DNA of 43,484 nucleotides from a virus (IMGVR_UViG_3300037852_000518:1-43484), one strand, 5' to 3'; shown: positions 13,984 through 40,020, numbered from the stretch's first letter. Numbers and translations: made by a program. Notes: generated by a model not told the origin, from the letters alone.

Positions 13984-13994
13984 TAAATATACGC
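13984..13994 (+). promoter_or_regulatory. CTANATA-type start box before the terminase genes
   Basis: TAAATA at 13984-13989 ends 5 bases before ATG 13995; no SD is present. It lies within GCGTA-AATA-TACGC, a 5-bp inverted repeat abutting the ATG. One of 12 similar sites before virion genes. Confidence 0.5.
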
Positions 13995-14468
13995 ATGGCA
14001 AAGCTCCTCGAAACCATGTCCGATGTCGCCTTTGCACTCGGGGTCTCCAAACAGACCGTAAGTGATTGGAAGGTGATGGGTTGTCCCCACCTCAAGCGGA
14101 AGCCGTTTGACCTCGACAAGATCGCCAAGTGGCAGAAGGACAACATTGAACCCTCCCAGGTGCGCCGTAAACGCTCGGAAGACAACCTCGAACTGATCGA
14201 ACGGAAGCGCCTTGCCGAGACCGAAATCAAGGAGCTTCAGGTCCGCACGATGAGGTGGGAGAGCGCCCTCAATGAAGGCAGGCTCGTCTGGGCTGAAGAC
14301 TGGGAGCGGGCGCTCAACACCCAGGCTGAGAGCTTCCGTAAGGCCCTACTCAGCGTGAAGTATCGCTGGGCTGCCAAGCTCGTGGGGCTAACCCAGGAGC
14401 AGGCCGAAACTCTTCTCGACGAGATCGCAGAGGACGTGCTTCGTGTGCTCCACAAGGGGGACAGTTGA
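13995..14468 (+). CDS. Terminase small subunit (Nu1-like)
   Basis: The protein has 157 residues. The N-terminus has a winged-helix/HTH of the Nu1 type (MSDVAFALGVSKQTVSDWKVMG, about 7-28, then F-D-L-D-KIAKW), followed by an Arg/Glu-rich helical segment (about 60-85) for oligomerisation. It would recognise the packaging site and load the large subunit. It overlaps the terminase large subunit by 4 bases, fixing its identity through context. It has a CTANATA box instead of an SD. Confidence 0.75.
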   Translation: MAKLLETMSDVAFALGVSKQTVSDWKVMGCPHLKRKPFDLDKIAKWQKDNIEPSQVRRKRSEDNLELIERKRLAETEIKELQVRTMRWESALNEGRLVWAEDWERALNTQAESFRKALLSVKYRWAAKLVGLTQEQAETLLDEIAEDVLRVLHKGDS

Positions 14469-16273
14469 ATGAGATCATTTCCCTCGACCAACGTAACGCC
14501 TCCCTCGATGGCCTAGAGCGATCCTGGAGGGACATTCTCCGTCCCCCCGAGCATCACGACCCTGTTGATTGGTGCGAGCGCCACATCGACCTCACGAGGT
14601 CCAGCGCCAAGCAGGGTCTAATCCAATTCTCATTCACCCCGTACCTCGCTGAGATCGTCCGCACCGTCACGCAACCCGTCGATCGTGTCACCCTCTGCTT
14701 CTCCAGCCAAATCGGCAAGTCCCTCGCCCTCACGTGTATCGGGGCCTACAGCGTCAAGTGTCGGCCTACGCCGATCCTCTTCGCCATTTCCACCAAGGAA
14801 CTCGCCGAAGAGTTCTCCCAGGAGAAGCTCGACCCGGTTCTCCAGGGATGCGAGGCACTCCGCTCGATCCTCCTGGACACGAAGTCCGACGATACGACCC
14901 TCAAGAAGCGATTCCGCAACTGCACATGGATTCTTCAAGGAGGCCAGTCCAAGCGGAGTGCGAAGCACCGGAGCGTCGGGCTGCTCATGCTCGATGAGAT
15001 CGAGGATATGCCGACGCCGGTTTACGCCTCATTCCTGCAGAGAATCAAAGCCTTCCCCGGTGCCAAGATTTACGAAGCCTCGACGCCCGATATGGAAGAG
15101 GGCCGAACGTGGAAGTCCTACAAAAGTGGTTCTTGCGAGCGGTTTCATATTCGGTGCCCGTTTTGCGACGAGGAGCAGACCCTTGAGTGGCAGCATCTCA
15201 AATTTGGCGGGGCCAAGGAGGGTGACGAGTGGGACTTGGACAAGCTCCCGGAAGTCACGTACTACAAGTGCCCTTACTGCTCAGAGCACATCGACGAGAA
15301 ACACAAGCCCCAAATGTTGGAGAGCGGGCGCTGGATTGCTGAGCATCCTGAGAGGACGAAGCACCGCTCGTTTCAGTTGAACGCACTCTACAGTCCATTT
15401 CAAAAATGGCACGCTGTCGCCCGTGAGTTCCTGGAGGCTGAAGGTCATCCTCTGGCCCTCAGAGAGTGGCGCACTGGTTCGATGGCAGCCCCCTGGACGT
15501 TTCCAGTCGGACAGGCGGTATCGAACCGCATCTTCGCTTGCTGTCGCAAATACGATCGAGGGCGGGTGCCGTGCATCCCCGGCCATATCGTCCTCGCTGC
15601 CGACTACGGCAAGAAGCAAATTCACTGGGTCGTTGCTGCCATCGAAGCAGCAAACAAGAAGGGAAACAACGGAGGAGCGACCTTCATCCTCGACCACGGG
15701 ACAAGCGATACCCTCGAACATCTGCAGGAAGTCAGCCAGCGCCTCTTCGATGGTTACGCAGTCACCCTCAAAGGGCTGGACTGTAACTTCGACACCCCGG
15801 AAACCAAGGAGTTCTGCCGCATCAATCAATGGTGGCCCATCATCGGGTCCACCAAGATTCACGCCTCGTATCAGTTCAACAAGCAGAGCGGCCACCTCCT
15901 GCTACAAGCCGACATCATCAAGGACATCTTCGACGGGAAGATCGACATGAAGGATCGCTGGAACTTGTTCTCGGATGACGGGCAGTTGGGCGATTTCGTC
16001 GCTCAGTTGGCGGGCGAGGTACGGATTGTGGTCACTGAGGACGGCTACGGATTCGGCAAACGGAAGTGGAAGCGAGTCGGCGCACAGCACTACTTCGATT
16101 GTTGTTGTTACGTGGAAGGCATGATTCAAGCCTTCGGATTGCGCTACGCCCCGGCGATGATCCCGATCAAACCCCGAGAGGAGGAGGAACAGAAGCCCAA
16201 AGGGTTCAAGCGCCCCTTGCTGACTCCGGGAGACCGCTTGGCGAAATACCGACAGTTTGCCACTAGATACTAG
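14465..16273 (+). CDS. Terminase large subunit (GpA family)
   Basis: The protein has 602 residues, near the lambda gpA length. An ATPase domain has the GpA-type Walker A variant SSQIGKS (80-86) and Walker B VGLLMLDEIED (171-181). A zinc-ribbon follows (C231, C234, C269, C272). The nuclease domain starts near VLAADYGKKQ with an acidic strand end and continues through GLDCNFDT. The start is TTG in a TTGA overlap with the small-subunit stop, with AAGGGGG four bases upstream. It pumps DNA into the prohead and cuts concatemers. Large subunits of this family usually produce cohesive ends or related packaging schemes; the type cannot be told from sequence alone. Confidence 0.95.
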   Translation: MNEIISLDQRNASLDGLERSWRDILRPPEHHDPVDWCERHIDLTRSSAKQGLIQFSFTPYLAEIVRTVTQPVDRVTLCFSSQIGKSLALTCIGAYSVKCRPTPILFAISTKELAEEFSQEKLDPVLQGCEALRSILLDTKSDDTTLKKRFRNCTWILQGGQSKRSAKHRSVGLLMLDEIEDMPTPVYASFLQRIKAFPGAKIYEASTPDMEEGRTWKSYKSGSCERFHIRCPFCDEEQTLEWQHLKFGGAKEGDEWDLDKLPEVTYYKCPYCSEHIDEKHKPQMLESGRWIAEHPERTKHRSFQLNALYSPFQKWHAVAREFLEAEGHPLALREWRTGSMAAPWTFPVGQAVSNRIFACCRKYDRGRVPCIPGHIVLAADYGKKQIHWVVAAIEAANKKGNNGGATFILDHGTSDTLEHLQEVSQRLFDGYAVTLKGLDCNFDTPETKEFCRINQWWPIIGSTKIHASYQFNKQSGHLLLQADIIKDIFDGKIDMKDRWNLFSDDGQLGDFVAQLAGEVRIVVTEDGYGFGKRKWKRVGAQHYFDCCCYVEGMIQAFGLRYAPAMIPIKPREEEEQKPKGFKRPLLTPGDRLAKYRQFATRY

Positions 16274-16276
16274 CTC

Positions 16277-17134
16277 TCACCTAGCTGGTTCTCGCTTATC
16301 GAATAACCCAAATAACGTTAGCGGGCCATAGGTGACCAGTCCGCCCTTGAAGGAATTGTTGTTGGGGCCGACTGAAAGATAGTAATTGTCGCCGTCTTTT
16401 AACATGATGCCATCGTTATTCACGTCGATATACCGTTCACCTTGCCCCTTCAGCCGTACACCAACCTTGTCATCGATTATACAGTAACAGTCTCTTGGCC
16501 CCTGGAGTCGGATGGAGCCTTCGATGAGGACGTTCGCTCCATCGATTTTTATTACCCTCTCAAGTGTCCCCATCTTTTGTTGCAGCACCGCCACAGTCTT
16601 TCCCATTTCTGCCGGTTCTTTGTGCTCGGCCAGATAGTCAATGAACTGTTTCAACTTGTTCCATTCGTCGGGTGTCAAAGTTGCCGCTTTCTTCGCAACG
16701 ACGTTCACAGTCTCGGCAGTTTTTTGCGCCTCCTCCGCTGAACGTTGTGCCGCCTCAGCCGACTGTCGTGCCCTGGCTAAGTTGGCATTTGCTACTGCCA
16801 ACTGATCCTCCATGTTCTTCATTGTGGTCTGCATCTTGACGACTTGATTCATTGAGCCACTCATCATCGCCTGTATGGGGCCATCGAGCAGTTTTGTATT
16901 GCGATCGATCTGCTCCTTAACTGTGACGGACGCTACGCTGTTGATGCTGGTAAATACACCAACGATGATGGCCCCGATAACTGCAAAGTTCGCAATTCCA
17001 AAGACGGTGCCCCATCGCTTGACGGCGGCATCAACTTCCTTCTCAACGATCGCCCTCCGAAAGTTCTTGTTGTTTGCGAGAGCGTCTCGCAGCGCCTCTT
17101 TTACAGCCTCATCTCGCTCCTGCTCATTCATCAT
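16277..17134 (-). CDS. Membrane-anchored coiled-coil protein (possible moron)
   Basis: The protein has 285 residues from ATG 17134 (a second ATG follows immediately); the longer frame overlaps the opposite-strand gene at 17293 and is not supported. It has an N-terminal acidic/basic helix, one transmembrane segment (about 42-64, VFGIANFAVIGAIIVGVFTSI), a long coiled coil (about 85-150, with repeated A/E/K/Q and AEAAQRSAEEAQKTAE), then a beta-rich C-terminus (about 190-285) with repeated Gly/Asp turns. It is inserted opposite to the flanking terminase and zinc-ribbon genes, typical of a moron carried in a virion gene cluster. Function unknown. Confidence 0.55.
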   Translation of the reverse strand: MMNEQERDEAVKEALRDALANNKNFRRAIVEKEVDAAVKRWGTVFGIANFAVIGAIIVGVFTSINSVASVTVKEQIDRNTKLLDGPIQAMMSGSMNQVVKMQTTMKNMEDQLAVANANLARARQSAEAAQRSAEEAQKTAETVNVVAKKAATLTPDEWNKLKQFIDYLAEHKEPAEMGKTVAVLQQKMGTLERVIKIDGANVLIEGSIRLQGPRDCYCIIDDKVGVRLKGQGERYIDVNNDGIMLKDGDNYYLSVGPNNNSFKGGLVTYGPLTLFGLFDKREPAR

Positions 17135-17269
17135 GGTACTTGAATCCCGTGTCGCTGTTTCGTGGGTTTGAAACGCACTGCATCTTACCATTACGGCGAT
17201 CCCAACACTACGGCCAGCAATCATCCAGAAGTCAGGCTTGGCGATCCGTGATTCCTCGGCACATTTTTC

Positions 17270-17294
17270 ATGCACCAACACTAAATACGTGCAT
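17270..17294 (+). promoter_or_regulatory. CTANATA-type start box inside an inverted repeat
   Basis: TAAATA at 17282-17287 ends 5 bases before ATG 17293. The box sits in the 13-base loop between ATGCAC (17270-17275) and GTGCAT (17289-17294), a perfect 6-bp inverted repeat that takes in the first two bases of the start codon. Confidence 0.5.
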
Positions 17295-17517
17295 GAAGAA
17301 GCACGAATCAAAGGCTCCCGCTGTAGTGGCCATGCCGGAAATAGGCGAAACGGAAGCACCGGTCAATGAGAAGGTGTGCCCCGTGTGCAACCCGAAGCAG
17401 ATCGTATTGCGGATGCGAGAGGGTGCTTCGTGGGTTGAGTTCGGGTGTCCGGGTTGCCACTTGATGTGGTTGGAGCCCCGTGTGACGTATGCCGATTTGG
17501 CGATGAGGAAAAGATGA
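17293..17517 (+). CDS. Small zinc-ribbon protein
   Basis: The protein has 74 residues. CPVC (29-32) and CPGC (52-55) are spaced like a zinc ribbon, and the hydrophobic pattern between them (IVLRMREGASWVEFG) fits two beta strands. The N-terminus is polar. It begins a two-gene unit: its TGA overlaps the next ATG (ATGA). Its start has a CTANATA box and no SD. It is upstream of the portal, so an assembly role is possible but unproven. Confidence 0.6.
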   Translation: MKKHESKAPAVVAMPEIGETEAPVNEKVCPVCNPKQIVLRMREGASWVEFGCPGCHLMWLEPRVTYADLAMRKR

Positions 17518-17759
17518 GCCCAGAGTGTCAGGAAGAAGTCGGCGAGGAGTTCATGAACGCCGGTTTCGCCCAAAAAGTGAAACTGATCGAGGCAGCCATT
17601 GGTCGTGTCGCTTATTCCCAGGAGCACGATGTCCAAGGGAACAGGAACAGACGGGCGCTCCTGTCCGAGTTGAAGGAAATTCACCTCTACTTCCTTGAGC
17701 TTGCGAAGTACGCCATCAGTCCATCGGCGATTTACCGGATGACATTCCTACGGGGCTAA
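17514..17759 (+). CDS. Small helical protein next to the portal
   Basis: The protein has 81 residues from ATG 17514, which overlaps the preceding stop. It is mainly helical (GFAQKVKLIEAAIGRVAYSQEH, RALLSELKEIHLYFLELAKYAI). Proteins of this size between terminase and portal are often head-tail joining proteins (lambda gpW-like), but no signature residues are seen. It ends 28 bases before the portal. Confidence 0.5.
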   Translation: MSPECQEEVGEEFMNAGFAQKVKLIEAAIGRVAYSQEHDVQGNRNRRALLSELKEIHLYFLELAKYAISPSAIYRMTFLRG

Positions 17760-17766
17760 ATGAGGA

Positions 17767-17792
17767 GGCACGTCACTACATAAGGACGTGCC
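17767..17792 (+). promoter_or_regulatory. CTANATA-type start box in a 7-bp inverted repeat
   Basis: TACATA at 17777-17782 ends 5 bases before the portal GTG at 17788. It lies at the centre of GGCACGT (17767-17773) / ACGTGCC (17786-17792), a perfect 7-bp inverted repeat whose right arm includes the GTG start codon. Confidence 0.55.
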
Positions 17793-19497: not shown

Positions 19498-19511
19498 GAG
19501 AAATTGGCGGC

Positions 19512-19529
19512 ACGGTCCCTAGATACCGT
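19512..19529 (+). promoter_or_regulatory. CTANATA-type start box before the capsid gene
   Basis: TAGATA at 19520-19525 ends 4 bases before ATG 19530. It is bracketed by ACGGT (19512-19516) and ACCGT (19525-19529), a 5-bp inverted repeat abutting the ATG. No SD is seen. Confidence 0.55.
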
Positions 19530-21740
19530 ATGGCGTCCCAATTTCTAACTCGCACGTTCAAGATCGATCGCAAGACCCGTAAGGCGGTCATTGCCACACA
19601 AGCCCCGGTCCCGATGATCCCGGACGGACGGGGCAATCTCCTCCCAGAAATCCTTCTGATGAGCGGTCTTCAACTCAACGAAGATCGCAGCGTCAAAGTC
19701 CTCGACAGCCACAACGACGATTCGATCGACAACATCAAGGGCCGTCTCCACGACATCCGTGTTGAGAATGGCCAAGCGGTTGGCGATCTCGAAATGGACG
19801 AGGGCGAGGTCGATGCGGTCAGGAAGGTGGAGAAGGGCTTCGTCGATCGCTTGAGCGCCGGTTACTTCGCCGACGAGTCCGAGATGGTCGAGAAGGGCCA
19901 GACCCGGACATACGAGTGGGAAGAGGACGCCCCCTACCCAGAAGAAAACAAGCCACAGGATGAGTCCGTTCTTCGTTCCGCCGACGATGAGGAATGTGAT
20001 TGCGAGGACGAAGAGGACTGTGAATGTGAGGATCGTTGCGACAAGGAAGATCGAGACGATGACGAAGAGGACCGAAAGGGGAACGACCGGAAGGCCCCGC
20101 CAAGGCCCACTCAGGGCGAGGGCGGCACCCGGAAGCGCATCAAGCGCTCGCTGACGGTCTCGGGTCCAGCAGTCGTCACCACGAAATGGAGGCTCAAGGA
20201 GGCGTCCCTCGTCGCAATTCCTGCCGACGATGACGCAAAAATCAGAGCAGAGTTCCTACATACCTTGAAGGCCCGGAACGGTTCCGAGCAAAAGATCGAC
20301 ACTCCCAGGAGAAACATGGATCAAGAAACCAAAACTGAAACACCTGCCCTCGATGAAAAGGCAGTCGCAGAACGAGCGGTCAAAGAGTACCAGACATTTC
20401 GGAGCCGAGTCCGTAAGCAAATCGACGCTGCTGGTTTGGCGCTAGACGTTGATGAGATTTGCGAGGCATCGGGCAGCGACTACGGTCGTGCCTGCGAAGA
20501 GATCGTTAACCGGATGGCGAAGGCTCAAAAGAAGCCTGAGCACGTCGTTGTCGGAGATGACGAGAGAGTCAAGAGCAGGAACTTCGTCAAGGATTTGATC
20601 AAGTACCGCTCGCTCAACATGCTTCGGGCCAATGCGACCCCTGAAACCAGGACCGAAGTCTATGACAAGGAAATGCCGAAAGGCGATTTCGAGAAGTACG
20701 CCCGTTGGGGTTATCGGGACATCGCTCGGATGCTGTTCGAGAGCCAGGGCATTTCTTGCCGTGATCTCTCGGGTAACGAAATCCTTGAGCGATCTTTCTT
20801 CGGACAACGTGACGGTTTTGGACTGCCAACTGTAACTCCCGGTTCGTTGCCCTCCATCTTCCAGGATGCGGTCAACTTGACGCTGGCGATTCAGTACAAG
20901 GCAGCGGACACCACATTCGACATCGTTGGCCGATACGTCGGCACCTTCATCGGAATGTTCGACGTTCACGTTCAACGGCTCTCGAACATTAACTCGCTTG
21001 ATGCATGGCCAGCGGGTGAAGATCCGAAGCAGAAGAAACTCTACGATGCGCCCAGCACGTGGAAGGCCGTGAATTACGGTGACAACATCGTCATCGATTA
21101 CGGTTCGATCCTCGCTGATCGCCTCGATTTCGTTGCGACGATCCCAGCCTCCTTGGCATGGGCCGCAAAACGAACCTTCAACCAGAACTTCTGGGCTTGT
21201 ATTACTGGCAATCAAGTTGTCCAGGAAGACAACAAGGCCCTGTTTGACGCCAGCCACAACAACACATGCTCGAACCAGACCGACCCGTACAACAGCAATT
21301 CGCAAGTTTATGGGACGAGCGTTTGGAACTTGAGCAAGATGCGGAGCCTCATGCGTTCACAGAGGGGCATGGATGGGTCGTTGATTCGTCTCACGCCAAG
21401 CTTCGTCGTGGTTCCCACCACTCTGGAAACTCAAGGCGACATTACTGTCCAGAGCCCGTCCTCGCCGATTCCGAACGTGTTCCAGGGACTTCAGACCTTC
21501 AAGGGAAGTCTCCGCACGTTGGTTGAGCCAGAACTGGATGCAAACAGCCTGACTGCATTCTACATGATGGCCGAGCCAATCATGGCTTGTGCCGGTTACG
21601 CATGGCACGAAGGGCAGGCTACCCCCATCATCGATTCCTTCGTTTACCAGCCCAACAAGAGCTACATCTATCAGGTTGCTCAGGCCGGAGCGGTGGGTCT
21701 CGTCGATTGGCGCAGCAACGTCAAGTACACGGGCACATAA
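19530..21740 (+). CDS. Fused prohead protease and major capsid protein
   Basis: The protein has 736 residues. Residues 1-~255 are a phage prohead serine protease: the catalytic His is in LDSHN (about 58-62) and the Ser in RLSAGYF (about 108-114), and the domain ends in WRLKEASLVAIPADDDAKI. It is interrupted by a very acidic Asp/Glu/Cys insert (about 150-190). Residues of about 263-736 are a major capsid protein resembling Mu gpT: a helical leader (about 263-370), then NEILERSFFGQRDGFGLPT, RTFNQNFWACITGN and the C-terminal SLIRLTPSFVVVPTTLE. An internal ATG at 20316 with AGGAG could also give free capsid protein. Cleavage between the two parts is expected. Confidence 0.9.
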   Translation: MASQFLTRTFKIDRKTRKAVIATQAPVPMIPDGRGNLLPEILLMSGLQLNEDRSVKVLDSHNDDSIDNIKGRLHDIRVENGQAVGDLEMDEGEVDAVRKVEKGFVDRLSAGYFADESEMVEKGQTRTYEWEEDAPYPEENKPQDESVLRSADDEECDCEDEEDCECEDRCDKEDRDDDEEDRKGNDRKAPPRPTQGEGGTRKRIKRSLTVSGPAVVTTKWRLKEASLVAIPADDDAKIRAEFLHTLKARNGSEQKIDTPRRNMDQETKTETPALDEKAVAERAVKEYQTFRSRVRKQIDAAGLALDVDEICEASGSDYGRACEEIVNRMAKAQKKPEHVVVGDDERVKSRNFVKDLIKYRSLNMLRANATPETRTEVYDKEMPKGDFEKYARWGYRDIARMLFESQGISCRDLSGNEILERSFFGQRDGFGLPTVTPGSLPSIFQDAVNLTLAIQYKAADTTFDIVGRYVGTFIGMFDVHVQRLSNINSLDAWPAGEDPKQKKLYDAPSTWKAVNYGDNIVIDYGSILADRLDFVATIPASLAWAAKRTFNQNFWACITGNQVVQEDNKALFDASHNNTCSNQTDPYNSNSQVYGTSVWNLSKMRSLMRSQRGMDGSLIRLTPSFVVVPTTLETQGDITVQSPSSPIPNVFQGLQTFKGSLRTLVEPELDANSLTAFYMMAEPIMACAGYAWHEGQATPIIDSFVYQPNKSYIYQVAQAGAVGLVDWRSNVKYTGT
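20307..20318 (+). promoter_or_regulatory. Internal ribosome-binding site for free capsid protein
   Basis: AGGAG (20307-20311) with 4-base spacing precedes an in-frame ATG at 20316 (residue 263 of the fusion), exactly between the protease and capsid domains. Initiation here would give a 474-residue capsid protein, analogous to nested genes in lambda head assembly. Confidence 0.55.
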
Positions 21741-21801
21741 CAAAAACACCTTTTTACTCAGTGGGCGATCGGCCAACTGGCACTCATAGGAGCAAAAGAA
21801 A

Positions 21802-22524
21802 ATGGCAAATTACACGGCCCTCACCGGCCCTTACAAATACCGAGAGCACTGGCTCGGAAATCGAACCATCAACTCGACACCAGAGCAAGGAACAGGCTGG
21901 AAGGCCACAACTGGAGGGGCTGGCTCTCCAACCGCAACGACTCTTGACGGAGCCGACAGCGGGGCGCTTCGCATGGCTCTTGCCTCAACGTCTGCCGCTC
22001 AATGGATCACATTGACCCACGGCGATGTCAAAGGCTTCGGCATTGGCGGCACGGCAAACGAGGGTAACCTCGAAAGCTTCGTTGTGAAGGCGACGGTGAC
22101 CAACCCAGACGCCACAAACTACACGCTCTTCGTCGGAATGGGTGGCAACTACTCAGCTACTTTGTCGAGTGGTTTCCCCACCGGTGTGGCTCGTGTTGGA
22201 TTCGAGGTCGTGGGCAGCACGGTTTACGCCCGCTGCTACGACGGCGCAACTGACTCTGGTCAGGTTGCCACGGGCATCACGCTCCAGTCTGGCATCCCCC
22301 AGGTGTTCTGTGTGAATTTCGATTCGCCGACGAACGTCAAGTTTTACGCCTCGAACTCGTCGAACTACGGTGTCATCGATCCCGTCTGCACCGGAACCAC
22401 GTTCACCCTCTCGAACCAGTTGGGCAACTCGTTCCAACCGTATGTGCATCACGGAAAGCTCAATGGCACCTCGACTACGACTGCCGATCTCGACGTGATT
22501 TGTATCAATGGACACATGCAGTAA
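21802..22524 (+). CDS. Probable head decoration or capsid surface protein
   Basis: The protein has 240 residues and is beta-rich with many Thr/Ser/Gly and few charges. Long alternating strands (NLESFVVKATVTNPDATNYTLFVGMGG, RVGFEVVGSTVYARCYDG, IPQVFCVNFDSPTNVKFYAS) suggest a jelly-roll or concanavalin-like fold. It directly follows the capsid gene and is closed by a terminator at 22561-22589, fitting a decoration protein. AGGAG lies about 10 bases upstream of the ATG, and no CTANATA box is seen, so it is likely cotranscribed with the capsid gene. Confidence 0.55.
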   Translation: MANYTALTGPYKYREHWLGNRTINSTPEQGTGWKATTGGAGSPTATTLDGADSGALRMALASTSAAQWITLTHGDVKGFGIGGTANEGNLESFVVKATVTNPDATNYTLFVGMGGNYSATLSSGFPTGVARVGFEVVGSTVYARCYDGATDSGQVATGITLQSGIPQVFCVNFDSPTNVKFYASNSSNYGVIDPVCTGTTFTLSNQLGNSFQPYVHHGKLNGTSTTTADLDVICINGHMQ

Positions 22525-22560
22525 TCGTTGATGAGCCTCTGGTCCCCACCGGAGGACGGG

Positions 22561-22589
22561 AAAAGGGGCCGCTTTCGAGCGGCTCTTTT
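22561..22589 (+). terminator. Terminator after the capsid/decoration unit
   Basis: GCCGCT / AGCGGC with a TTCG tetraloop (22568-22573 and 22578-22583) is followed by TCTTTT, and outer AAAAG/CTTTT pairing makes it usable in both directions. It separates the capsid unit from the connector unit starting at 22614. Confidence 0.85.
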
Positions 22590-22603
22590 CATTGCACAAC
22601 CTC

Positions 22604-22613
22604 TAAATAAGAC
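22604..22613 (+). promoter_or_regulatory. CTANATA-type start box before the connector gene
   Basis: CTAAATA at 22603-22609 ends 4 bases before ATG 22614 and lies only 15 bases past the upstream terminator. With so little room, the promoter of this unit must be the box itself or overlap the terminator, which supports a promoter role. Confidence 0.6.
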
Positions 22614-22985
22614 ATGAACCGATTCCTCAACATGATCCAGTCCGAAGCCCGCAACGTGTACTTCACCGACTGGGGTCAATGTCTCACTTACACGCCTGCG
22701 CACGCCCCCGGTTATCCCGATCAGCCCCGCACCATCTGTGGCATCTGGGACATCAGCGAGACCGGACTCCTCACCGACGAAGGCGATCGCAATCGCTATC
22801 ACAAAATGGCGTCACTCACACTCGATCATTGTGATGGGCCATTTCAGCAAGGCGACACGTTCGAGTTCGGGGGACTTTCCTGGAAGCTCAACCAGAGCCC
22901 TAAGACGATTCTCGACGGGCTTCAAACCCTGGAAGTGATCTCGAAACAGACCTACGAAATCGGCGAATTCAGAAGGAAGTCATGA
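22614..22985 (+). CDS. Probable head-tail connector protein
   Basis: The protein has 123 residues, mostly beta (TICGIWDISE, HKMASLTLDHCDGPFQQGDTFEFGGLSWKLN, LQTLEVISKQTYEIGEF). Length, composition and position between capsid genes and the tail-tube gene match head-tail joining proteins (lambda gpFII-like fold), though no signature is decisive. Its stop overlaps the next ATG (ATGA). It starts at a CTANATA box. Confidence 0.55.
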   Translation: MNRFLNMIQSEARNVYFTDWGQCLTYTPAHAPGYPDQPRTICGIWDISETGLLTDEGDRNRYHKMASLTLDHCDGPFQQGDTFEFGGLSWKLNQSPKTILDGLQTLEVISKQTYEIGEFRRKS

Positions 22986-23512
22986 CGTATTTGGCGACAG
23001 GCGGGCCGTCGTTTGGAGGCTGGGGCATCTGCACCTACACCTGCGGCCCCTCGATGGGCATTTTGACTGGGCCTCCTGCTGCGATGAGACAGGACGTTCT
23101 CAACTGCGTCAATTGGCAGAACTGGGCCTTATCCCAGTACATGACCAACGTCCACGTCATCGGTGCGACGAACGACCCCAACGTCACTGACGATTTTCCT
23201 CGACCTCTGGTTGTGATCAGCATGACCGAAGAATCGATGGAGACGAGGATCGACACGGGGCCGTTTACCAGAGGCACTCTTGTGATGTGGTTCGAGGACA
23301 AAATTCATCCTTGCTGTGCTGATCCGACATCGGCCTACAACCAATTCTGTGGACGAGTCGAGTCCGTGGTCACAGAACTCAACGGCCAAGGCATCGGCGG
23401 GATGCTGTTAAGGCGATCGATCAGACCATTTCAACGACCGTGGCAAAGTCAGGTAAACGACCCGACGAGGTTCTACAATCTCTCGTTCCTCGTCTCCTTC
23501 GGTCCCGCCTAA
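22982..23512 (+). CDS. Probable tail completion/terminator protein
   Basis: The protein has 176 residues with a Gly/Cys-rich N-terminus (GGWGICTYTCGPSMG) and an alpha/beta core (DFPRPLVVISMTEESME, GTLVMWFED, PTSAYNQFCGRVESVVTELNG, RFYNLSFLVSFGPA). It comes immediately before the tail tube, where siphophages usually encode the tail terminator (lambda gpU-like). It is translationally coupled to the preceding gene, with AAGGAAG before the ATG. The role is inferred from gene order. Confidence 0.5.
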   Translation: MTYLATGGPSFGGWGICTYTCGPSMGILTGPPAAMRQDVLNCVNWQNWALSQYMTNVHVIGATNDPNVTDDFPRPLVVISMTEESMETRIDTGPFTRGTLVMWFEDKIHPCCADPTSAYNQFCGRVESVVTELNGQGIGGMLLRRSIRPFQRPWQSQVNDPTRFYNLSFLVSFGPA

Positions 23513-23530
23513 ATCTGCGTGCTGCGCCCC

Positions 23531-23566
23531 TACATACCGTAGGCATTTTTCGCTTACGGGAGCAGC
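23531..23566 (+). promoter_or_regulatory. CTANATA box with structured leader before the tail-tube gene
   Basis: TACATA at 23531-23536 is followed by CCGT as at 19520-19529, but here the ATG is 30 bases further on. The intervening leader can fold (CCGTA/TTACGG) and ends with GGGAG, a normal SD, 5 bases before ATG 23567. This is the one unit with both signals. Confidence 0.45.
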
Positions 23567-24526: not shown

Positions 24527-24537
24527 CCGGGTGAGTG

Positions 24538-25206
24538 ATGCCGACATCGGGAGAAGAAAGAGCCCTTGATCAAGCCGATGCCCTGGACAACAGGCGACGT
24601 GCGCCACGAGGGCCACGTATGCCCAAGAAGAGTTCGGGTGGTGGGCGAGTCCCAAAAACCAAGAACCCCCTGTTCGGCCTACGACTGAAGATCGAGGAGA
24701 CTAATCCGCCCGACATCAAGAAGCGCCTCATGAACACGATCATGAGGGAGGGGCTTTACAAAACGGGCGAGATGTGGATCGAGGAGTACCTGCCTGATCA
24801 CTTCGATAAGTCCGCAGTCCAAAAGTACGGGTATCGATTGGTCTCTAAGGTGTACGCCATCATCAAGAACAGGGCCAAGCGAGTTCGACCTTGGATCGGG
24901 CGCATGAGAGGGAGTTGGGTTCCCGCACCAAAGCCAGTTCGTCCGTGGGTCTGGTCTGGGATGACGATGAGAGACCTTCTGTTCAAACCGACGAGTGCCT
25001 TCAACATCAAAGCGAGATCGACCACGAATAAGCAGACCGTATCGGTTCCGGTCAAAGTCCCGCACCCGGTTACGACCGAACATGCTGGAGAATTGGTCCG
25101 GTACACGCCGGATGAGTTCCGTGCGATGCACAAGTTCTGCTTCGGTTACATCATCGCCGAACTCGAAAAGATCAAATCCATCCGATCGCAGGAGTTTACA
25201 TGGTAG
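24538..25206 (+). CDS. Tail-completion-like basic protein
   Basis: The protein has 222 residues from ATG 24538 (a GTG precedes it; ATG 24619, with GAGGG upstream, is another possible start). It is Lys/Arg-rich. WIEEYLPDHFDKSAVQKYGYRLVSKVY resembles a conserved segment of phage proteins common in Planctomycetes, in which W-x-LPxHF-x5-Y-YxxR is followed by a basic region and RPWVWSG. The C-terminus has TTEHAGELVRYTPDEFRAMHKF. The family's role is not proven; it is probably a tail assembly or head-tail protein. Its stop overlaps the start of the next gene. Confidence 0.5.
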   Translation: MPTSGEERALDQADALDNRRRAPRGPRMPKKSSGGGRVPKTKNPLFGLRLKIEETNPPDIKKRLMNTIMREGLYKTGEMWIEEYLPDHFDKSAVQKYGYRLVSKVYAIIKNRAKRVRPWIGRMRGSWVPAPKPVRPWVWSGMTMRDLLFKPTSAFNIKARSTTNKQTVSVPVKVPHPVTTEHAGELVRYTPDEFRAMHKFCFGYIIAELEKIKSIRSQEFTW

Positions 25207-25427
25207 AAGACAAAGACATCGACGCTCTTCAACAAGCAGCGTCCGAACTGCTGGACGAAATCCAAACAGATGACTTCATTGAGCAACTGGGAGAGGAGAT
25301 CAGGGCGCTCCTCGATGAAATCCATGCAGAGCTAAATCTTGCTCAAACCACAGTTGATCCACAAAGCACGGCCGATAATTCTTCAGCAGACCTTCCCGCC
25401 ACATCCGATGATTCACGTAGCGGATAG
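25200..25427 (+). CDS. Small acidic protein before the tape measure
   Basis: The protein has 75 residues, strongly acidic, with one long predicted helix (IDALQQAASELLDEIQTDDFIEQLGEEIRALLDEIHAELNLA) and a Ser/Asp-rich tail. GGAG lies 6 bases before the ATG, inside the previous gene. Small helical proteins between tail tube and tape measure are commonly tail assembly chaperones; no frameshift product is seen here, so that is only positional inference. The 3' end overlaps the convergent gene by 15 bases. Confidence 0.5.
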   Translation: MVEDKDIDALQQAASELLDEIQTDDFIEQLGEEIRALLDEIHAELNLAQTTVDPQSTADNSSADLPATSDDSRSG

Positions 25428-26183
25428 TGTGGGCGGGCCATTGCCCGCCACGACTTGTTTTTTGCGGAAGTTCTCCTCTGCCTCAAAGAAGGGAAAGCCC
25501 AGGGCGTACCGAATCACGTACAGGATGCTTGTCCCATTGAGGAGCTTCAGCGCACAGGCTTCGGGACCGCTCACTCGATAATTCACGTTGAGAAGATCGC
25601 AGGCCACGTAGAACTGTTCGTACTTCTCCATCACGAGATCGGTCAGGTCCAAGTCCTCGAACCCTTCCTTCTTTCTCATCCAATTCCATTGCTTATGGCA
25701 CTTGGCACAGAGGGCGCTCCAGCGATCGCCAAGCTCCTCCGCAACCCCGCCACGCTTCCAAACCAATTCGGTGGGCAACGACGTGAGTTGAGTCCCCGGC
25801 AGAGTGGCGAGGGGGATGACGTAAGGCTGGCCATTGAGATTGAGCGGTAATCCCTCCGTCACTTGAGGACGCTGAAGGTCGTATGGTTTGGGCGGATTCT
25901 CAGTCTCCCAGCCGATCCAATGCGTGGTCACGTCGTCCTCGTTCTCGATCGATTTCCAGGTCTGTTTGCTCGGGTCGAAGATGACCTGAGCCTGTCGCCC
26001 TCCGGTTCCCGGTGCCGGATCGACTACGGCCACCGTTCCAGGCCCATCATCTGGCCCTTTGCCGACGTGAAGAGGGGAGAAGGTCGCATCGTCGAGGACG
26101 TTCCCCAGTTTGCACTCAGGCGGGATTTGTTCGACGTTCCCCAATGTCCTGAGCTTTGGAAAGTAATAAAGAAATGCGCTCAT
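25413..26183 (-). CDS. Virion-cluster protein with CxxC motif, opposite strand
   Basis: The protein has 256 residues from ATG 26183; the much longer frame through the tape-measure gene is not credible. Early segments are polar and Pro/Gly-rich. WSALCAKCHKQWNW (about 165-178) has a CxxC pair and aromatic residues, suggesting a metal site with residues elsewhere. The C-terminus has a helix and ends in a Gly/Pro tail. It is leftward between rightward tail genes and shares a 36-base divergent region with the tape measure. The start is preceded by TAACTA at the same distance as the CTANATA boxes. The product may be a baseplate or tail accessory protein. Confidence 0.55.
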   Translation of the reverse strand: MSAFLYYFPKLRTLGNVEQIPPECKLGNVLDDATFSPLHVGKGPDDGPGTVAVVDPAPGTGGRQAQVIFDPSKQTWKSIENEDDVTTHWIGWETENPPKPYDLQRPQVTEGLPLNLNGQPYVIPLATLPGTQLTSLPTELVWKRGGVAEELGDRWSALCAKCHKQWNWMRKKEGFEDLDLTDLVMEKYEQFYVACDLLNVNYRVSGPEACALKLLNGTSILYVIRYALGFPFFEAEENFRKKQVVAGNGPPTLSAT

Positions 26184-26219
26184 GCCTGTAGTTAGTGCTC
26201 CCGGAGGATAAATATCCTC
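26184..26219. promoter_or_regulatory. Divergent CTANATA-type boxes
   Basis: On the plus strand TAAATA (26209-26214) ends 5 bases before ATG 26220, inside GAGGATA..TATCCTC, an inverted repeat that also contains GGAGG. On the minus strand TAACTA (26194-26189), a one-base variant of the box, ends 5 bases before ATG 26183. Both genes are served within 36 bases. Confidence 0.5.
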
Positions 26220-29652: not shown

Positions 29653-29729
29653 TTTTTGAAATATCCGATAATTGTTTTTGTTGTTACGACTGACTCGCAA
29701 ACTCGACAACCTAGAAACCAGATCCTCTC

Positions 29730-29767: not shown

Positions 29768-29798
29768 TTTGTAAGAGTAGATGACAGAGGGCGACAGG

Positions 29799-30234: not shown

Positions 30235-30242
30235 TCTCCTCC

Positions 30243-31751: not shown

Positions 31752-32614
31752 GCGAGTGCGGCGCTCCCACCGACATTGACCCCTGTGGCTTCCCCTTTGA
31801 CCTTGAACATGGACATCATTCCAGCGCCCACCGGACAACGTGTGTCAGAGACCAAAATCCATTCACCCACGTAGGCGATGGTGCAGGGCTGCCCAGACTG
31901 CCCGCCGACTTGGTTGTAGTCAGTCACGATCACTTGCCCGAGTGCGGAATAGGCCCCGAAGTTTCCGGTTGAGCCGATAATCTGAGGAGTAGCTGGGGCC
32001 GAGGCCCCTGGAGTAGTAATGTCCCCATTGAGGATCGCAGGAAGCGTGATCGTTCCTTGTGGGCCTGTCAGCGTAAATTGGCCTCCCCAGCCACACGGCT
32101 CAACCTGGAGGGGAAACCCGGCAGGGGCCATGATCGACCACGTGTTGGCACAAGGCGTTGTCAGATAACCGCCATAGACCTGGACACGAATTTGGGGATT
32201 CGGAAAGACGAAGGCTCCCATCTGTGGATTAATGTCGATCGGGCTCGTGCCCAGCATTTTATTCGGATAAGAAATCGTGCAGAACCAAGCTGGACCGACT
32301 TGCTCAACTTCTACGATCGAGTTTGGCGGAATGTATCCCCAACCCAAATTAGCGAAGTAGAAGCCGTCGCTGCCCGTTGGACTGCCGACCCCAGAAACTC
32401 CGTTGCTCTGGGTCGTTGTCGAGACAGGAACGCCCCAATAAACGGTGTTGACGCCGCCAGTGTTCGCTGGCGGATAATTGCCTCCGGGGTCGGCCTGCGT
32501 TAGGACTAGTTGCACTTGCGCACTGGCATCGACGTTCGCCAACCGAACTGCCTCATAGGAGGAGTCGTCCTCCAGGCGCATCACCCGTTCTTCAAGGTCT
32601 CTGAGCGAAGTCAT
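31748..32614 (-). CDS. Tail protein, beta-rich
   Basis: The protein has 288 residues. A short N-terminal coiled coil (MTSLRDLEERVMRLEDDSSYEAVRL) is followed by a long Gly/Thr/Pro-rich beta region (STTTQSNGVSGVGSPTGSDGF; GWGGQFTLTGPQGTITLPAI). The coiled coil could trimerise a fibre-like or collar protein. Overlaps on both sides (ATGA junctions) place it between the hub and the Cys-rich protein in one leftward operon. No family was recognised. Confidence 0.6.
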   Translation of the reverse strand: MTSLRDLEERVMRLEDDSSYEAVRLANVDASAQVQLVLTQADPGGNYPPANTGGVNTVYWGVPVSTTTQSNGVSGVGSPTGSDGFYFANLGWGYIPPNSIVEVEQVGPAWFCTISYPNKMLGTSPIDINPQMGAFVFPNPQIRVQVYGGYLTTPCANTWSIMAPAGFPLQVEPCGWGGQFTLTGPQGTITLPAILNGDITTPGASAPATPQIIGSTGNFGAYSALGQVIVTDYNQVGGQSGQPCTIAYVGEWILVSDTRCPVGAGMMSMFKVKGEATGVNVGGSAALA

Positions 32615-34809
32615 TCGGCCACCTCCTCCTCGCCCAGGTCTTCGGGTCGGCCCAACAGATGCACATAGTCGAGTTCTTCAAATCCCGTCCGTATCGTCGT
32701 GGTCTGTCGGTCGTAATCGACCTCAATGCTGTTGATCAACGTCCCAATGGGTTCGGTCGAATACGCCGTATTCATCTGTTCGAGAAAACTGCCCAGCCCC
32801 ACGTAAATTCCGGGCTGCTTGACGGTGATGCTGATCGTCTGGCGAGGAAGCCCGTACCAAGCGGCCATTTCCGCAGTAATCTGCTGTAGGACTTCGTGAT
32901 CGTCATCGAGGATGAGATTGTCGAAGTCCAGATACAGGAGTTGCCCGTTGTTGCCCACATCAAACGGACAACCGGGGACTGCGTACATGAACCGACAGGA
33001 AGGCAGAACTTCGATCTTCGTCCTGTTCCCTCCGAATGGACTTTGCCATTGGACACAAGGTCTCACGTCGAGATCGATGCAGCCGACCACGACGAGATTG
33101 GTGTAGTCCAACTCGGGGTTCTTGTTCGTCGGGTTCGCACCTTGCCAATGGTTGAGGGCGAGATAGTGGTTCGGAGTCGCCTCGATGTGGATTCCCAACT
33201 CGATGTCGGCCTTATGCGCCGTGAGGTTCTTCACAGACTTATTGTCTGACGTGAACTTCTCGATCTTGTGCCATTGCTGATCGGCGTTGTGCAGTGATCC
33301 GTTGTCGGAGTCGTAATACAGCACCAAGAGCGGCACGTACTCCGCACGGTGCGGATTGGGGTTGTTATCGACAGGCGGATTCTTCGTGTAATCGACGCCC
33401 TTCTTGGTGGGCAGGTTCTTGTAGTAAACCTTGTCGAAGAGGACGAACTGGGCACCGTCGAGGTCGGTCTTCAACTGCTTCTGCTGGCCATCAGGGGGAT
33501 TGATGTCGATCGTCCCATCCGGGAAAGGGATCGCAATCACGTTTTGAGTTTTGTCCGAGGCGTTATCGACAACCGTCCCGTCCCATTTGCGATCGACGTA
33601 AAACCGTTGAAAGATGTCCTTGTAGTAGTCCCTCGCCCGCTCCTTGTCGTTCTGGTCCGCATTGCCAGCGCCTCCGGGAACTCCAGTGCGGTACTGATCA
33701 ATGACCTTCTGTCCGGTGTTGGGATCGACCAGAATGTCTCCTGTGTGCAGGAGGTTCCCGTTGTTGGGCGGATAAAGAAGTTGTCCCCAGGCTTTCGAGT
33801 TTGCGAACGAAGCCGGGAACATCATCTTCACCCTCGCCCCATAGACGAGGATTTGCCCGTAGTTCGTTTTGTCGGTCTTTGTGATCGGTACGTCATCGAC
33901 GAGTTGATCGTACGGAGGACCGGGCATCGTGAACTGCACAGGGTTGCTGTTGGGCGGGATCGTCATCCCAGCGACCTGAATGGCGTTGTTCTGCACCGTA
34001 TCGACGTAGAGATACACGGTCCCGTCATCGCCCACGTAGGGGACCATGATCAGACCCTTGCGATGGTCGATCAACTGGGTCAGCGCCTTCCACAAACTCG
34101 TCCCTTCTTTGAAATCGTGGTAGGCGATCATCTGGTCGAGGGGGTCCGTCTGCCCCACGATTTGGAACGTCACATTGTCAGGCCCGTAAAATTGGAGGAG
34201 GTGCTGCGCAATCTGAAGGTTACTCCACTTTTCGCCGTATGCCCCGAACATGTACACGCCTTGCGGTCCCAGATTGTGGCTCCTGTTTCCGACGAGGGCC
34301 TTTCCCTTCGTAGGCTTTCTGTTGAAGCTCAACGCTGAGTTCAGCGAGACCGTTACGGTGGCTGGGTTGCTTCCCTTGGGATTTGTCTTGATCGCCTTCG
34401 CCCCGTTGATACGGCAGCGGTCGAGGAGGTACTCGATCCCTTGGGCTTGGAATTCCTGATCCCCGGATTGGAGATCAGTCCGCTCGCTGACAGTCGTTTG
34501 GTCAGCGAAGATGCCCCACCACACAGGCACAGGATCAGAGAAGGGCTGCTGGATCGAGACTCGGACGTAGAGATCGACGAGATCGAGGGGTCCGATGATG
34601 TCGGGCACGTCCTCACCCTCCAGTTGCTCCTCCCCAGTGCGGTAGTGGAAGGCAGCCCGTCCCGTGTCTGGAGGCAGTCCTTGCTTGTGGGTCTTACAGA
34701 ACAGGTACGGGACGAATTGCCAGTTGCCCCAATCTTGAGCGATCTCGACAACGGAGTTGTTGTAGTCGATGGTGGGAGCGGAGCCGGGCTGATTGAAGAT
34801 CGACGGCAT
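32611..34809 (-). CDS. Tail hub / tip attachment protein
   Basis: The protein has 732 residues, the largest of the leftward tail operon. The N-terminal half reads like a tail hub (VRVSIQQPFSDPVPVWWGIFADQ; YDQLVDDVPITKTDKTNYGQILVYG), and the C-terminus ends with GTLINSIEVDYDRQTTTIRTGFEELDY, a closing strand pattern that resembles siphophage hub proteins. There is no N-terminal signal. Its start has a CTANATA box and no SD. Together with the gene at 34818-36536 it probably builds the tail tip. Assignment rests on size, order and strand pattern. Confidence 0.55.
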   Translation of the reverse strand: MPSIFNQPGSAPTIDYNNSVVEIAQDWGNWQFVPYLFCKTHKQGLPPDTGRAAFHYRTGEEQLEGEDVPDIIGPLDLVDLYVRVSIQQPFSDPVPVWWGIFADQTTVSERTDLQSGDQEFQAQGIEYLLDRCRINGAKAIKTNPKGSNPATVTVSLNSALSFNRKPTKGKALVGNRSHNLGPQGVYMFGAYGEKWSNLQIAQHLLQFYGPDNVTFQIVGQTDPLDQMIAYHDFKEGTSLWKALTQLIDHRKGLIMVPYVGDDGTVYLYVDTVQNNAIQVAGMTIPPNSNPVQFTMPGPPYDQLVDDVPITKTDKTNYGQILVYGARVKMMFPASFANSKAWGQLLYPPNNGNLLHTGDILVDPNTGQKVIDQYRTGVPGGAGNADQNDKERARDYYKDIFQRFYVDRKWDGTVVDNASDKTQNVIAIPFPDGTIDINPPDGQQKQLKTDLDGAQFVLFDKVYYKNLPTKKGVDYTKNPPVDNNPNPHRAEYVPLLVLYYDSDNGSLHNADQQWHKIEKFTSDNKSVKNLTAHKADIELGIHIEATPNHYLALNHWQGANPTNKNPELDYTNLVVVGCIDLDVRPCVQWQSPFGGNRTKIEVLPSCRFMYAVPGCPFDVGNNGQLLYLDFDNLILDDDHEVLQQITAEMAAWYGLPRQTISITVKQPGIYVGLGSFLEQMNTAYSTEPIGTLINSIEVDYDRQTTTIRTGFEELDYVHLLGRPEDLGEEEVAE

Positions 34810-34814
34810 GTACC

Positions 34815-34820
34815 TATTTA
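34815..34820 (-). promoter_or_regulatory. CTANATA-type start box before the hub gene
   Basis: On the minus strand CTAAATA ends 5 bases (GGTAC) before ATG 34809. No SD is present. The box overlaps the 3' end of the preceding gene (stop at 34818). Confidence 0.6.
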
Positions 34821-36536
34821 GTTGCGCTGCTCCGCAATGTAACGGTAAAAGCCTTTGAGTTGAGCAGGGCCAAAAGCCGTAACCTGACTCGTCACAGTGA
34901 GGATGTCCGAGTTCGTGCTCTCAACGCCATCGGAGCTTCGGTACATCCGCACGCACATCTTGCACGTGGTTCCGATCGTTTGAGACGTGCTGATGTAGTC
35001 GAGGAAGTCGTAAGGCCCGATGTTCGTGACGGGGATTGCGGTCGGAGTCTGGAGCAGCGGGTTCGTCCCGTCGAATGTGACATAGACGTGATAGAAGTCT
35101 GCGGGCGCTGCATCGAGCTTGAAGAAATAAATGCTCTGGGCCTCGAACTCGGTGCCGACTGCCGCCAGCGTGGTTGTCGGCGCTGACGGAGGCAAGTTCC
35201 GCTGAGTTCCGGTGCCGATCGAAAGGATGTACCAGTCCGTATTTTGGGAAGCGAGATTGTGCTGGTTCCTCGCATTGGTGCTGAGATAAACGTCCTCGTT
35301 GTTCGAGAACGTCGCTGTCGTTGTGTACGGGAAGCTCGTGAAGGTCTCATTCGCTGCCTGAGTGAGATCCGGGGGCTGGTTTATTCCCCAGGAAACCTCG
35401 TAGCGGGTCAAGCTGCTGTTATTCACTCGGAAGAGGCCCACAAGCTCATCGTTGTAGGTCACGCTGTTGAGCGTGAACTGGAGCGACAGCGAGACCTCGA
35501 ACCAAGGAGCGGCTGTCATCCCGCTTGGCAATTGCCGTTTGATCCAAAGTCCCATCTCCTGCCAGGGTGTGAGGGTCGAGATCGTGACCGAGTTTACAAA
35601 TGTAAGGCCGGTCGGAGCCGTGGTTTCATTGGCGAGAGGCCCTTGAATTGCGCCACTCGATGGCGTTTCCAAGGCGAGGGAAACAGGCGGGATTGCTGTC
35701 AAAGTATCATCGAAGTTCCCGACCTGAGCAGTGGTTCCCAGCAGCCCTCGACCAGCGGCGGGAATCTGGAGGTACTGGTCGCCCCTCGAACTGTAGTAGC
35801 AGATTTCTCCGCTCGAAATCTGGACCCAGCCAAACCAGGGCCACTCCGAAAAGTCCTGCCCCCAGAGCTTCCCTGCCCCAAGGGTGTACAGAGGTTGTAA
35901 GCATGTGGTCGAGGCCAGCGAGTCCACGCTAATCGTGACGCTGGTGACATTGCTGAGGGCGTTGTTGCGAAGGATGACGCCTCTGTAGGTCGTTTCTCCT
36001 GCTACGGTCCCGTTGTTCGCTCCCCAAACATTGTTCAACTGATCGTCGAACTCAGCACTCGTCGAACCAATGAGCGGTGCATCGGTTGTCTGTTGGACCA
36101 TGACCCATTGATTCAACGAGTCCGAGATCGTGATCGGCATTCCCAGGACGGGCTGCACAGGACCGCCTACGGTCGCTCCGGGGCCAGCGTAAAGGAGGCT
36201 GCTGCCCAGGACGGTGAGGTTGCCCAGCCCCACTTGATGTGAGGCGTCGAGGATGTCGCAGTTCGGAATGGCACTTCCTTCAAGCACGCCCACACGGTTG
36301 GCAAAAGTGCCCGAACGATGACCTCCTAGTGAGAGCGCCTGTTCAAGTTGAAACTGTCCTTCGTAGGAGGCTCCTGTGTGGTAGAAGACAAGGGCAGCGC
36401 CGACTTGCCGCTCGTTCGAGGCTTGGACCGTGGCGAGGCCCCCGCAAATTACTCCACCATGTCCAAACTCGATGAAGACTTGGGGACTGATTTCCGAAAT
36501 GACGAGATCGCTGATCGGGCCGTAACCTAGAGGCAT
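34818..36536 (-). CDS. Large tail protein with GG-x2-CGG motif
   Basis: The protein has 572 residues. After a short N-terminus, VFIEFGHGGVICGGLA (about 20-35) repeats the motif of the 28430 and 31751 proteins. The remainder is Thr/Ser/Val-rich beta sequence with few Lys, e.g. LSNVTSVTISVDSLASTT and SIYFFKLDAAPADFYHVYV, suggesting stacked beta-sandwich domains and a probable Ig- or FN3-like fold near 430-540. Its start has a CTANATA box, and its divergent partner is the tail-fibre gene at 36576. Probable tail-tip protein. Confidence 0.55.
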   Translation of the reverse strand: MPLGYGPISDLVISEISPQVFIEFGHGGVICGGLATVQASNERQVGAALVFYHTGASYEGQFQLEQALSLGGHRSGTFANRVGVLEGSAIPNCDILDASHQVGLGNLTVLGSSLLYAGPGATVGGPVQPVLGMPITISDSLNQWVMVQQTTDAPLIGSTSAEFDDQLNNVWGANNGTVAGETTYRGVILRNNALSNVTSVTISVDSLASTTCLQPLYTLGAGKLWGQDFSEWPWFGWVQISSGEICYYSSRGDQYLQIPAAGRGLLGTTAQVGNFDDTLTAIPPVSLALETPSSGAIQGPLANETTAPTGLTFVNSVTISTLTPWQEMGLWIKRQLPSGMTAAPWFEVSLSLQFTLNSVTYNDELVGLFRVNNSSLTRYEVSWGINQPPDLTQAANETFTSFPYTTTATFSNNEDVYLSTNARNQHNLASQNTDWYILSIGTGTQRNLPPSAPTTTLAAVGTEFEAQSIYFFKLDAAPADFYHVYVTFDGTNPLLQTPTAIPVTNIGPYDFLDYISTSQTIGTTCKMCVRMYRSSDGVESTNSDILTVTSQVTAFGPAQLKGFYRYIAEQRN

Positions 36537-36575
36537 GAAGGTATGTAGTTCTCGGCCCGGCTGAATAGATACAGC
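36537..36575. promoter_or_regulatory. Divergent CTANATA-type boxes
   Basis: The minus strand has CTACATA ending 5 bases (CCTTC) before ATG 36536. The plus strand has TAGATA (36566-36571) ending 4 bases before ATG 36576, in the loop of GCTG (36560-36563) / CAGC (36572-36575). Both genes use the 39-base gap, which holds no SD. Confidence 0.6.
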
Positions 36576-39065: not shown

Positions 39066-39655
39066 CGAAATCCGTAAGCCGTGATTGTCTTTCTCGGCCC
39101 AGCGTACAGCATCTCCGATCCGGCGATGCGCCCCCCGTAAAGATTGACCGGGTTCGGTGGACCAGGGGTGAAGGCTGCGGTGTAAGTCACAACAAGCGAA
39201 AGGCCGAAAAATACGCCGTTCCGATTATTTCCCGTCGAGACCCCGCACTGCAGTTGAATGTCGAAATTCGCCCAATTCGCCAGCGTGTTGCCCGCCGTTT
39301 GAATTGTCATGCTAGTAGGGCCGGAAGTGATTTCGCTCGTGCTACTCGTGGTCACATTCGTCATTGTGGCGAGTTGCGTGCTGCCCCCGCTCTCGACCAG
39401 CGTAAGGGTAAAATCGGTCGTTGTGCTTTTGACCGCATTGTCCCATTCCACGGTATAGGTGACGGCAGTCACGGCCGACATTCCCGCCGTGCTAAAGCCG
39501 GTTCCCAATACTAGCGCATTCGAGGACGTGCCCGCAGTCATCTCGACGCTGTTGGTGCCGTTGGCGGCGAGGTTGCCGTGGAAGGTCGTGCCGCCGTTCA
39601 ATGCCCAATCGGTGGTTGTGATGTCGCTCGTGGGCGTAACGGTGATAGTCGCCAT
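39062..39655 (-). CDS. Thr-rich beta virion protein
   Basis: The protein has 197 residues with very high Thr, Ser and Asn content and hardly any Lys. It begins TITVTPTSDITTTDWALNGG and alternates short strands through most of its length, ending GGRIAGSEMLYAGPRKTITAYG. The pattern fits a beta-sandwich surface or fibre-tip protein. A CTANATA box precedes ATG 39655. Convergent with the tail-fibre gene. No family was recognised. Confidence 0.55.
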   Translation of the reverse strand: MATITVTPTSDITTTDWALNGGTTFHGNLAANGTNSVEMTAGTSSNALVLGTGFSTAGMSAVTAVTYTVEWDNAVKSTTTDFTLTLVESGGSTQLATMTNVTTSSTSEITSGPTSMTIQTAGNTLANWANFDIQLQCGVSTGNNRNGVFFGLSLVVTYTAAFTPGPPNPVNLYGGRIAGSEMLYAGPRKTITAYGFR

Positions 39656-39659
39656 CCCT

Positions 39660-39665
39660 TATCTA
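39660..39665 (-). promoter_or_regulatory. CTANATA-type start box
   Basis: On the minus strand TCTAGATA ends 4 bases (AGGG) before ATG 39655. The last A-G-G-G could act as a weak SD, but its spacing is too short; the box overlaps the stop of the previous gene at 39663. Confidence 0.55.
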
Positions 39666-40010
39666 GACGGCTTCAATCACCTTTAGATTCTTTGCGGCAA
39701 GCCAGGGCTCCCGATTGGCGAGCGTTGCCTCATGACTGTCGGCCGCTTGTGGGCCAACAAGCTCAGCCGTGACGGGCACTTGGTTCGCCACGATGAAGGC
39801 TTGCATGTGATCGTGCCGGGCCTGGGTTAGGCCCATCGCACAGAGGTGATGAGTGGCCGGAAGCTCTCCGGTCGGGCTAAGCGGCGTCGGCAACATCTTC
39901 TCGGCCGTTTGTGCGTGTCGCCCTTGGGAATCCATCCAAGCCAAACACAGCGGCCGGGCGGTCTCAATTTCTTCGGCTCGTGCGGTGATACAAACTGTGA
40001 ATAGGTCCAT
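39663..40010 (-). CDS. Hypothetical virion-region protein
   Basis: The protein has 115 residues. An alpha/beta pattern is visible (FTVCITARAEEIETARPLCLAWM; HHLCAMGLTQARHDHMQAFIVANQ), and the segment PLSPTGELPATHH recalls tail-fibre-associated chaperones only loosely. It is leftward, the first gene after a CTANATA box, and followed by the Thr-rich protein gene 7 bases on. Function unknown. Confidence 0.5.
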   Translation of the reverse strand: MDLFTVCITARAEEIETARPLCLAWMDSQGRHAQTAEKMLPTPLSPTGELPATHHLCAMGLTQARHDHMQAFIVANQVPVTAELVGPQAADSHEATLANREPWLAAKNLKVIEAV

Positions 40011-40014
40011 GCCG

Positions 40015-40020
40015 TATTTA
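40015..40020 (-). promoter_or_regulatory. CTANATA-type start box
   Basis: On the minus strand CCTAAATA ends 4 bases (CGGC) before ATG 40010. No SD is visible. It is the rightmost of the boxes and marks the edge of the late gene region. Confidence 0.6.

Follow-up and report, generated by a model that had tools for sequence, protein, structure and literature searches.

Does a short box that recurs a few bases before the start codons of a phage's virion genes act in the DNA, as a promoter, or in the mRNA, as a translation signal? The question is raised by a viral record of 43,484 nt (IMGVR_UViG_3300037852_000518; this whole stretch is "the window" below), in which an original prediction had described such a box on both strands and left both readings standing. 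The record belongs to a temperate phage, with an integrase, a GpA-type terminase, a lambda-type portal, a long capsid protein, a tape measure and a tail fibre.

The phage and its relative

We compared the window with IMGVR_UViG_3300050821_024089 (G001; 39.7 kb), which is collinear with it and shares ~70–80% nucleotide identity in most aligned blocks. A scan of the viral contigs of IMG/VR with eight queries returned no close relative besides G001, and 18 other phage or prophage loci held zero or one box–start pair each. In the search for a host, alignment of the portal against genome contigs gave no match, and profiles of the terminase and portal, run on sampled Planctomycetota, Armatimonadota and Acidobacteriota, either matched nothing or drew generic GpA-type hits only; a GroES piece matched many phyla at ~50% identity. 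The GroES-like phage gene lies at 10633–10926 (plus strand) and is 86–87% identical to that of G001.

A box at a fixed distance from start codons

The heptamer CTANATA occurs 12 times in the window where 2.34 copies are expected, a count of at least 12 arising in 0 of 100 shuffles, and 11 of the 19 TANATA copies in the window end exactly 4 or 5 nt before the ATG or GTG of a long ORF. All eleven boxes of the original prediction were found at the distance it had claimed. Its weaker TAACTA before 26183 and its box with a longer leader (placed by it at 23531, and here at 23530) were recovered as well, each with an orthologous counterpart in G001. The sites, with one adjoining terminator, are:

13983–13989, plus strand: box GTAAATA, 5 nt to ATG 13995, terminase small subunit (phrog_57)
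16263–16269, plus strand: orphan box CTAGATA, upstream element AAATAC at 16244–16249
17281–17287, plus strand: box CTAAATA, 5 nt to ATG 17293, small zinc-ribbon-like protein; element CATTTT at 17262–17267
17776–17782, plus strand: box CTACATA, 5 nt to GTG 17788, portal; element TAAATG at 17757–17762, same in G001
19519–19525, plus strand: box CTAGATA, 4 nt to ATG 19530, long capsid protein (probably a protease–capsid fusion); element GAAATT at 19500–19505, same in G001
22560–22590, plus strand: intrinsic terminator (-17.9 kcal/mol, z -3.45), directly upstream of the 22603 box
22603–22609, plus strand: box CTAAATA, 4 nt to ATG 22614; element TCTTTT at 22584–22589; kept in G001
23530–23536, plus strand: box CTACATA, 30-nt leader with SD-like GGGAG, ATG 23567; kept in G001
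26189–26195, minus strand: variant box CTAACTA, 5 nt to ATG 26183 (gene 25413–26183, minus strand)
26208–26214, plus strand: box ATAAATA, 5 nt to ATG 26220, tape measure; in palindrome GAGGATAAATATCCTC
34815–34821, minus strand: box CTAAATA, 5 nt to ATG 34809
36542–36548, minus strand: box CTACATA, 5 nt to ATG 36536
36565–36571, plus strand: box ATAGATA, 4 nt to ATG 36576, tail fibre; element TAGTTC at 36546–36551
39660–39666, minus strand: box CTAGATA, 4 nt to ATG 39655; CTAACTA-4-GTG in G001, right behind a strong terminator
40015–40021, minus strand: box CTAAATA, 4 nt to ATG 40010; T-tract element at 40035–40040, after a weak hairpin

Across the window, TANATA stands 4–5 nt before 9 of 252 ATGs that open ORFs of at least 100 aa, 1 of 262 (40–99 aa) and 0 of 732 (shorter); for GTG the counts are 1 of 226 (at least 100 aa) and 0 of 1055 (below 100 aa), and for TTG 0 of 1752. 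Given this absence before short-ORF ATGs, GTGs and TTGs, the equal frequency at random ATGs that the original prediction had named as evidence against itself does not hold. The distance profile is as sharp, with five cases at 4 nt, six at 5 nt and at most two at any other distance from 0 to 39 nt; G001 peaks alike (two at 4 nt, eight at 5 nt), mostly at orthologous genes. A C directly precedes TANATA in 15 of 21 sites, which had been chosen by TANATA, giving CTA[ACGT]ATA. While the listed genes do carry the box, it is not confined to them, an orphan copy being present at 16263.

One further CTACATA, with a matching A/T element, lies within the capsid gene (20256–20262, plus strand) and is kept in G001 (18702); we left it out of the counts. 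It may be an internal promoter, or conserved codons (FLHTL) may account for it.

Boxes, SD sequences and transcription units

An SD sequence is present at 1 of 12 box genes and 11 of 14 others in the window (p = 5e-4), and at 1 of 9 and 9 of 11, respectively, in G001 (p = 0.005), so that most boxed starts lack an SD and genes elsewhere use one, as had been proposed. This mutual exclusion is what a translation-initiation signal, read in the mRNA by the ribosome instead of an SD, would produce; the constant 4–5 nt distance agrees with it, as does the swap at the 34809 orthologues, where GGAGG replaces the box in G001 and the G001 box lies 26 nt upstream. Yet the placement of the boxes makes such a signal, the second option of the original prediction, quite improbable. 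Specifically, boxes precede the opening genes of transcription units and are rare at inner genes; in G001, for example, terS is the second gene of its operon and has an SD, the box having shifted to the preceding gene. A terminator ends 13 nt before the 22603 box—an arrangement conserved in G001—and G001 36592 is likewise preceded by a terminator. A single palindromic TATATA in G001 sits between divergent ATGs 15 bp apart and faces both; the minus-strand start at 24541 is real, since its gene is conserved. Finally, the boxes at 23530 and, in G001, at 21985 and 32067 come with the same upstream element, itself conserved at fixed spacing (see below), and stand 26–30 nt before a start that has an SD. 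First-gene position, terminators, closely spaced divergent starts and longer leaders therefore argue for a promoter rather than a ribosome signal.

The orphan 16263 box has a G001 counterpart 5 nt before the next gene. In the window, a ~1-kb insert (16277–17280) behind the terminase has separated the box from that gene, and the displaced gene has another box, at 17281, which also speaks for a promoter. Absent from G001, the insert carries a minus-strand coiled-coil/membrane-like gene between the terminase and the 17293 gene, and it resembles a moron inserted immediately behind a late box. The boxes of 34809 and 39655 come within 8 nt after the upstream gene's stop and would be internal promoters.

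A conserved upstream element

The original prediction had seen no constant -35, and in this it was wrong. Alignment of the sites on their boxes reveals, in both genomes, a 6-bp A/T-rich block at -20 to -15 from the first T of TANATA, that is, 13 bases 5' of CTANATA (p <= 5e-4 in the window; G001 by itself gives ~1e-3 to 4e-3 for these columns). G001 24541 (minus strand) did not enter these statistics, where it counted as a mirror image of the box on the plus strand. With divergent and terminator sites removed, 38 of 48 bases of the block are A/T, vs. 123 of 312 in the flanks. At divergent pairs the element coincides with the other box, as at 26208 (plus) and 26189 (minus), each of which is the upstream element of the other, and at 36565, whose TAGTTC overlaps the divergent box across a 16-bp gap also present in G001; behind terminators it coincides with the U-tract, as TCTTTT does before the 22603 box.

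Conservation separates the parts of the site. The element is identical in five orthologous pairs (AAATAC, TAAATG, GAAATT, TCTTTT, TAGTTC), the spacer having diverged in most of them. Over ten orthologous sites (window vs. G001), changes affect 2 of 50 cells of the box core, both involving the TAACTA variant, 6 of 10 in the N column, 76 of 130 in the spacer and 16 of 60 in the upstream element (core vs. spacer, p = 1e-12; element vs. spacer, p = 5e-5). Compared with the 10 bp above it (39 of 100 changed), the element's rate is not significantly different (p = 0.12).

A TATA directly 5' of the start site is typical of single-subunit RNA polymerase promoters, and these polymerases have a compact promoter footprint. 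The boxes resemble such promoters in the placement of TATA and could be read by a T7-like or N4-like phage enzyme that starts directly after the box, leaving a 4–5 nt leader; but a compact footprint would not reach the conserved element 20 bp upstream, and we consider this very hard to credit. The candidate was also rejected on its cognate gene, no such polymerase having been found among the scanned window proteins. That the boxes are operators for a late activator or repressor, and not core promoters, is improbable as well, even though the phage encodes a conserved ribbon-helix-helix-like protein (11561–11809, from sequence reading) and the divergent boxes are symmetric: on both strands the boxes keep a constant distance from the start codon, which suits a start-site element better, and a second -10 would not fit into the gap that follows the box.

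The palindrome GAGGATAAATATCCTC (26204–26219), which surrounds the tape-measure box, is perfect except for a central AA, and the SD-like GGAGGA within it would be placed 5' of the transcript predicted here.

Comparison with known promoters

The predicted late promoter of the T4-like phage Aeh1 is CTAAATA beginning at -12, 5 bp from the start site, with a diverged gp55 as its presumed reader and no upstream element described (PMC1524935); in EspM4VN, CTAAATAcCcc is reported as a motif only (PMC7283392). The proposed comparison with T4 late promoters is borne out by the box and by its distance: the sites have a TATAAATA/CTAAATA-like box, lack a sigma70 -35 hexamer and recur in many copies over late genes, and the 5-bp gap from box to start site in Aeh1 is the gap to the start codon here. 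Applied to this phage, the Aeh1 geometry would therefore place the start site on or beside the first base of the start codon. The comparison fails on the A/T element, found where T4-type promoters have no conserved -35 region, and on the phage itself, which is temperate with a lambda-type portal and GpA-type terminase. Neither gp55, gp33 and gp45 nor any sigma factor, RNA polymerase or clamp was recognised among the window ORFs scanned with Pfam, PHROGs and NCBIfam, a scan that a very divergent gp55 could escape. T4-like membership was rejected.

In Deinococcus-Thermus and other bacteria, leaderless genes carry a -10 motif, TANNNT, 6–7 bp before the ORF; in Deinococcus it has been proven to act as a leaderless promoter (PMC12340547), and it is widespread (PMC3160421). 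The host housekeeping RNA polymerase might thus read the boxes as the -10 of leaderless genes, CTANATA being a phage variant, and both the 5' TAN of the box and the box's position adjoining the ORF in place of an SD agree with this. We nevertheless judge it unlikely. Position 6, T in TANNNT, is A in all 11 window sites and their counterparts, with T at position 5 (the difference from Deinococcus that had been pointed out before) and mostly a C before; the gap to the start is 4–5 rather than 6–7 bp, and TANNNT was rejected on sixth position and distance. Moreover, an upstream element is present at a short spacing of 14 bp vs. 17, the sites precede phage virion genes, and CTANATA-N5-ATG is, as a rule, not above control in sampled Planctomycetota, which may not be the host's phylum. 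The conserved early gene 4569 already has the ordinary leaderless form (TAYTAT, 6 nt before GTG), which makes the late boxes look like a class of their own, with the standard form usable elsewhere. No excess of sigma70 promoter pairs was found in 13–43 kb.

The block GGATAACTAYTATATTGCTGTG at 4527–4575 (plus strand), before an HTH gene and conserved in G001, is a candidate early sigma70-type leaderless promoter.

Sigma28-type promoters have N15 spacing, and here the TAWW at -20 is as far from the box's ATA as their TAAA is from GATA. The likeness is one of layout only: of the flagellar/sigma28-type consensus (-35 TAAA, -10 GCCGATAA; PMC8325347), TAWW and ATA alone agree, CTA standing for GCC and NATA for GATAA, and the start site would be too close. 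This candidate was rejected.

A model for late expression

We think it likely that each site is a bipartite late promoter, composed of CTANATA and the A/T-rich element, and that it yields leaderless or near-leaderless mRNAs, as the original prediction had favoured. The word "late" is suggested by gene content, and "leaderless" by geometry: with the box 4–5 bases from the start, the messages probably begin at the start codon, without a ribosome-binding leader. The proposed layout is a 6-bp A/T-rich element (~TAAATT/TAGTTC), 13 bp, CTANATA, 4–5 bp and the start codon. Transcription from it would involve a bacterial-type RNA polymerase with a non-standard specificity factor, opening the DNA at CTANATA ~5–6 bp before the start codon; RNA would begin at, or a few bases from, the A or G of that codon, and the leaderless 5' end would serve as the loading site for ribosomes. 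Late operons on either strand would each have their own promoter, inner genes using an SD or overlap.

Temperate phages with lambda-type heads usually have one late promoter and antitermination. Here, a compact promoter would instead be fused to the start codon of each late operon, on both strands. As far as sequence comparison goes, the bipartite box appears to be a phage late promoter of known type in a new form, set apart by its element, spacing and box sequence. More tentatively, and with some doubt, a temperate phage with a lambda-type portal may have evolved a dispersed late-promoter system independently of T4, with an unrecognised phage factor and nearly every virion operon leaderless; if so, late transcription is tied to SD-free translation. 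If the mRNAs are leaderless, the whole virion programme would be translated without an SD, late expression could follow changes in the ribosome that give leaderless mRNAs an advantage, and a promoter would evolve together with its start codon as one movable unit—a picture suggested by the terS shift and by the new box behind the insertion. The motif is now precise enough to be used in seeking the factor that reads it.

Several other genes stood out. The region 32611–36536 (minus strand) encodes two large late proteins, of 732 and 572 aa, that matched nothing in Pfam, PHROGs or NCBIfam, and the only relatives of them found in IMG/VR were those in G001. In the accessory region, 6002–7624 (minus strand) encodes a protein with a PIN_8 domain, possibly a defence gene, for which the comparison with G001 gave no orthologue. 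The early region encodes a TPR protein (7982–9775, plus strand) with weak similarity to glycosyltransferase family 9 that is ~73% identical in G001.
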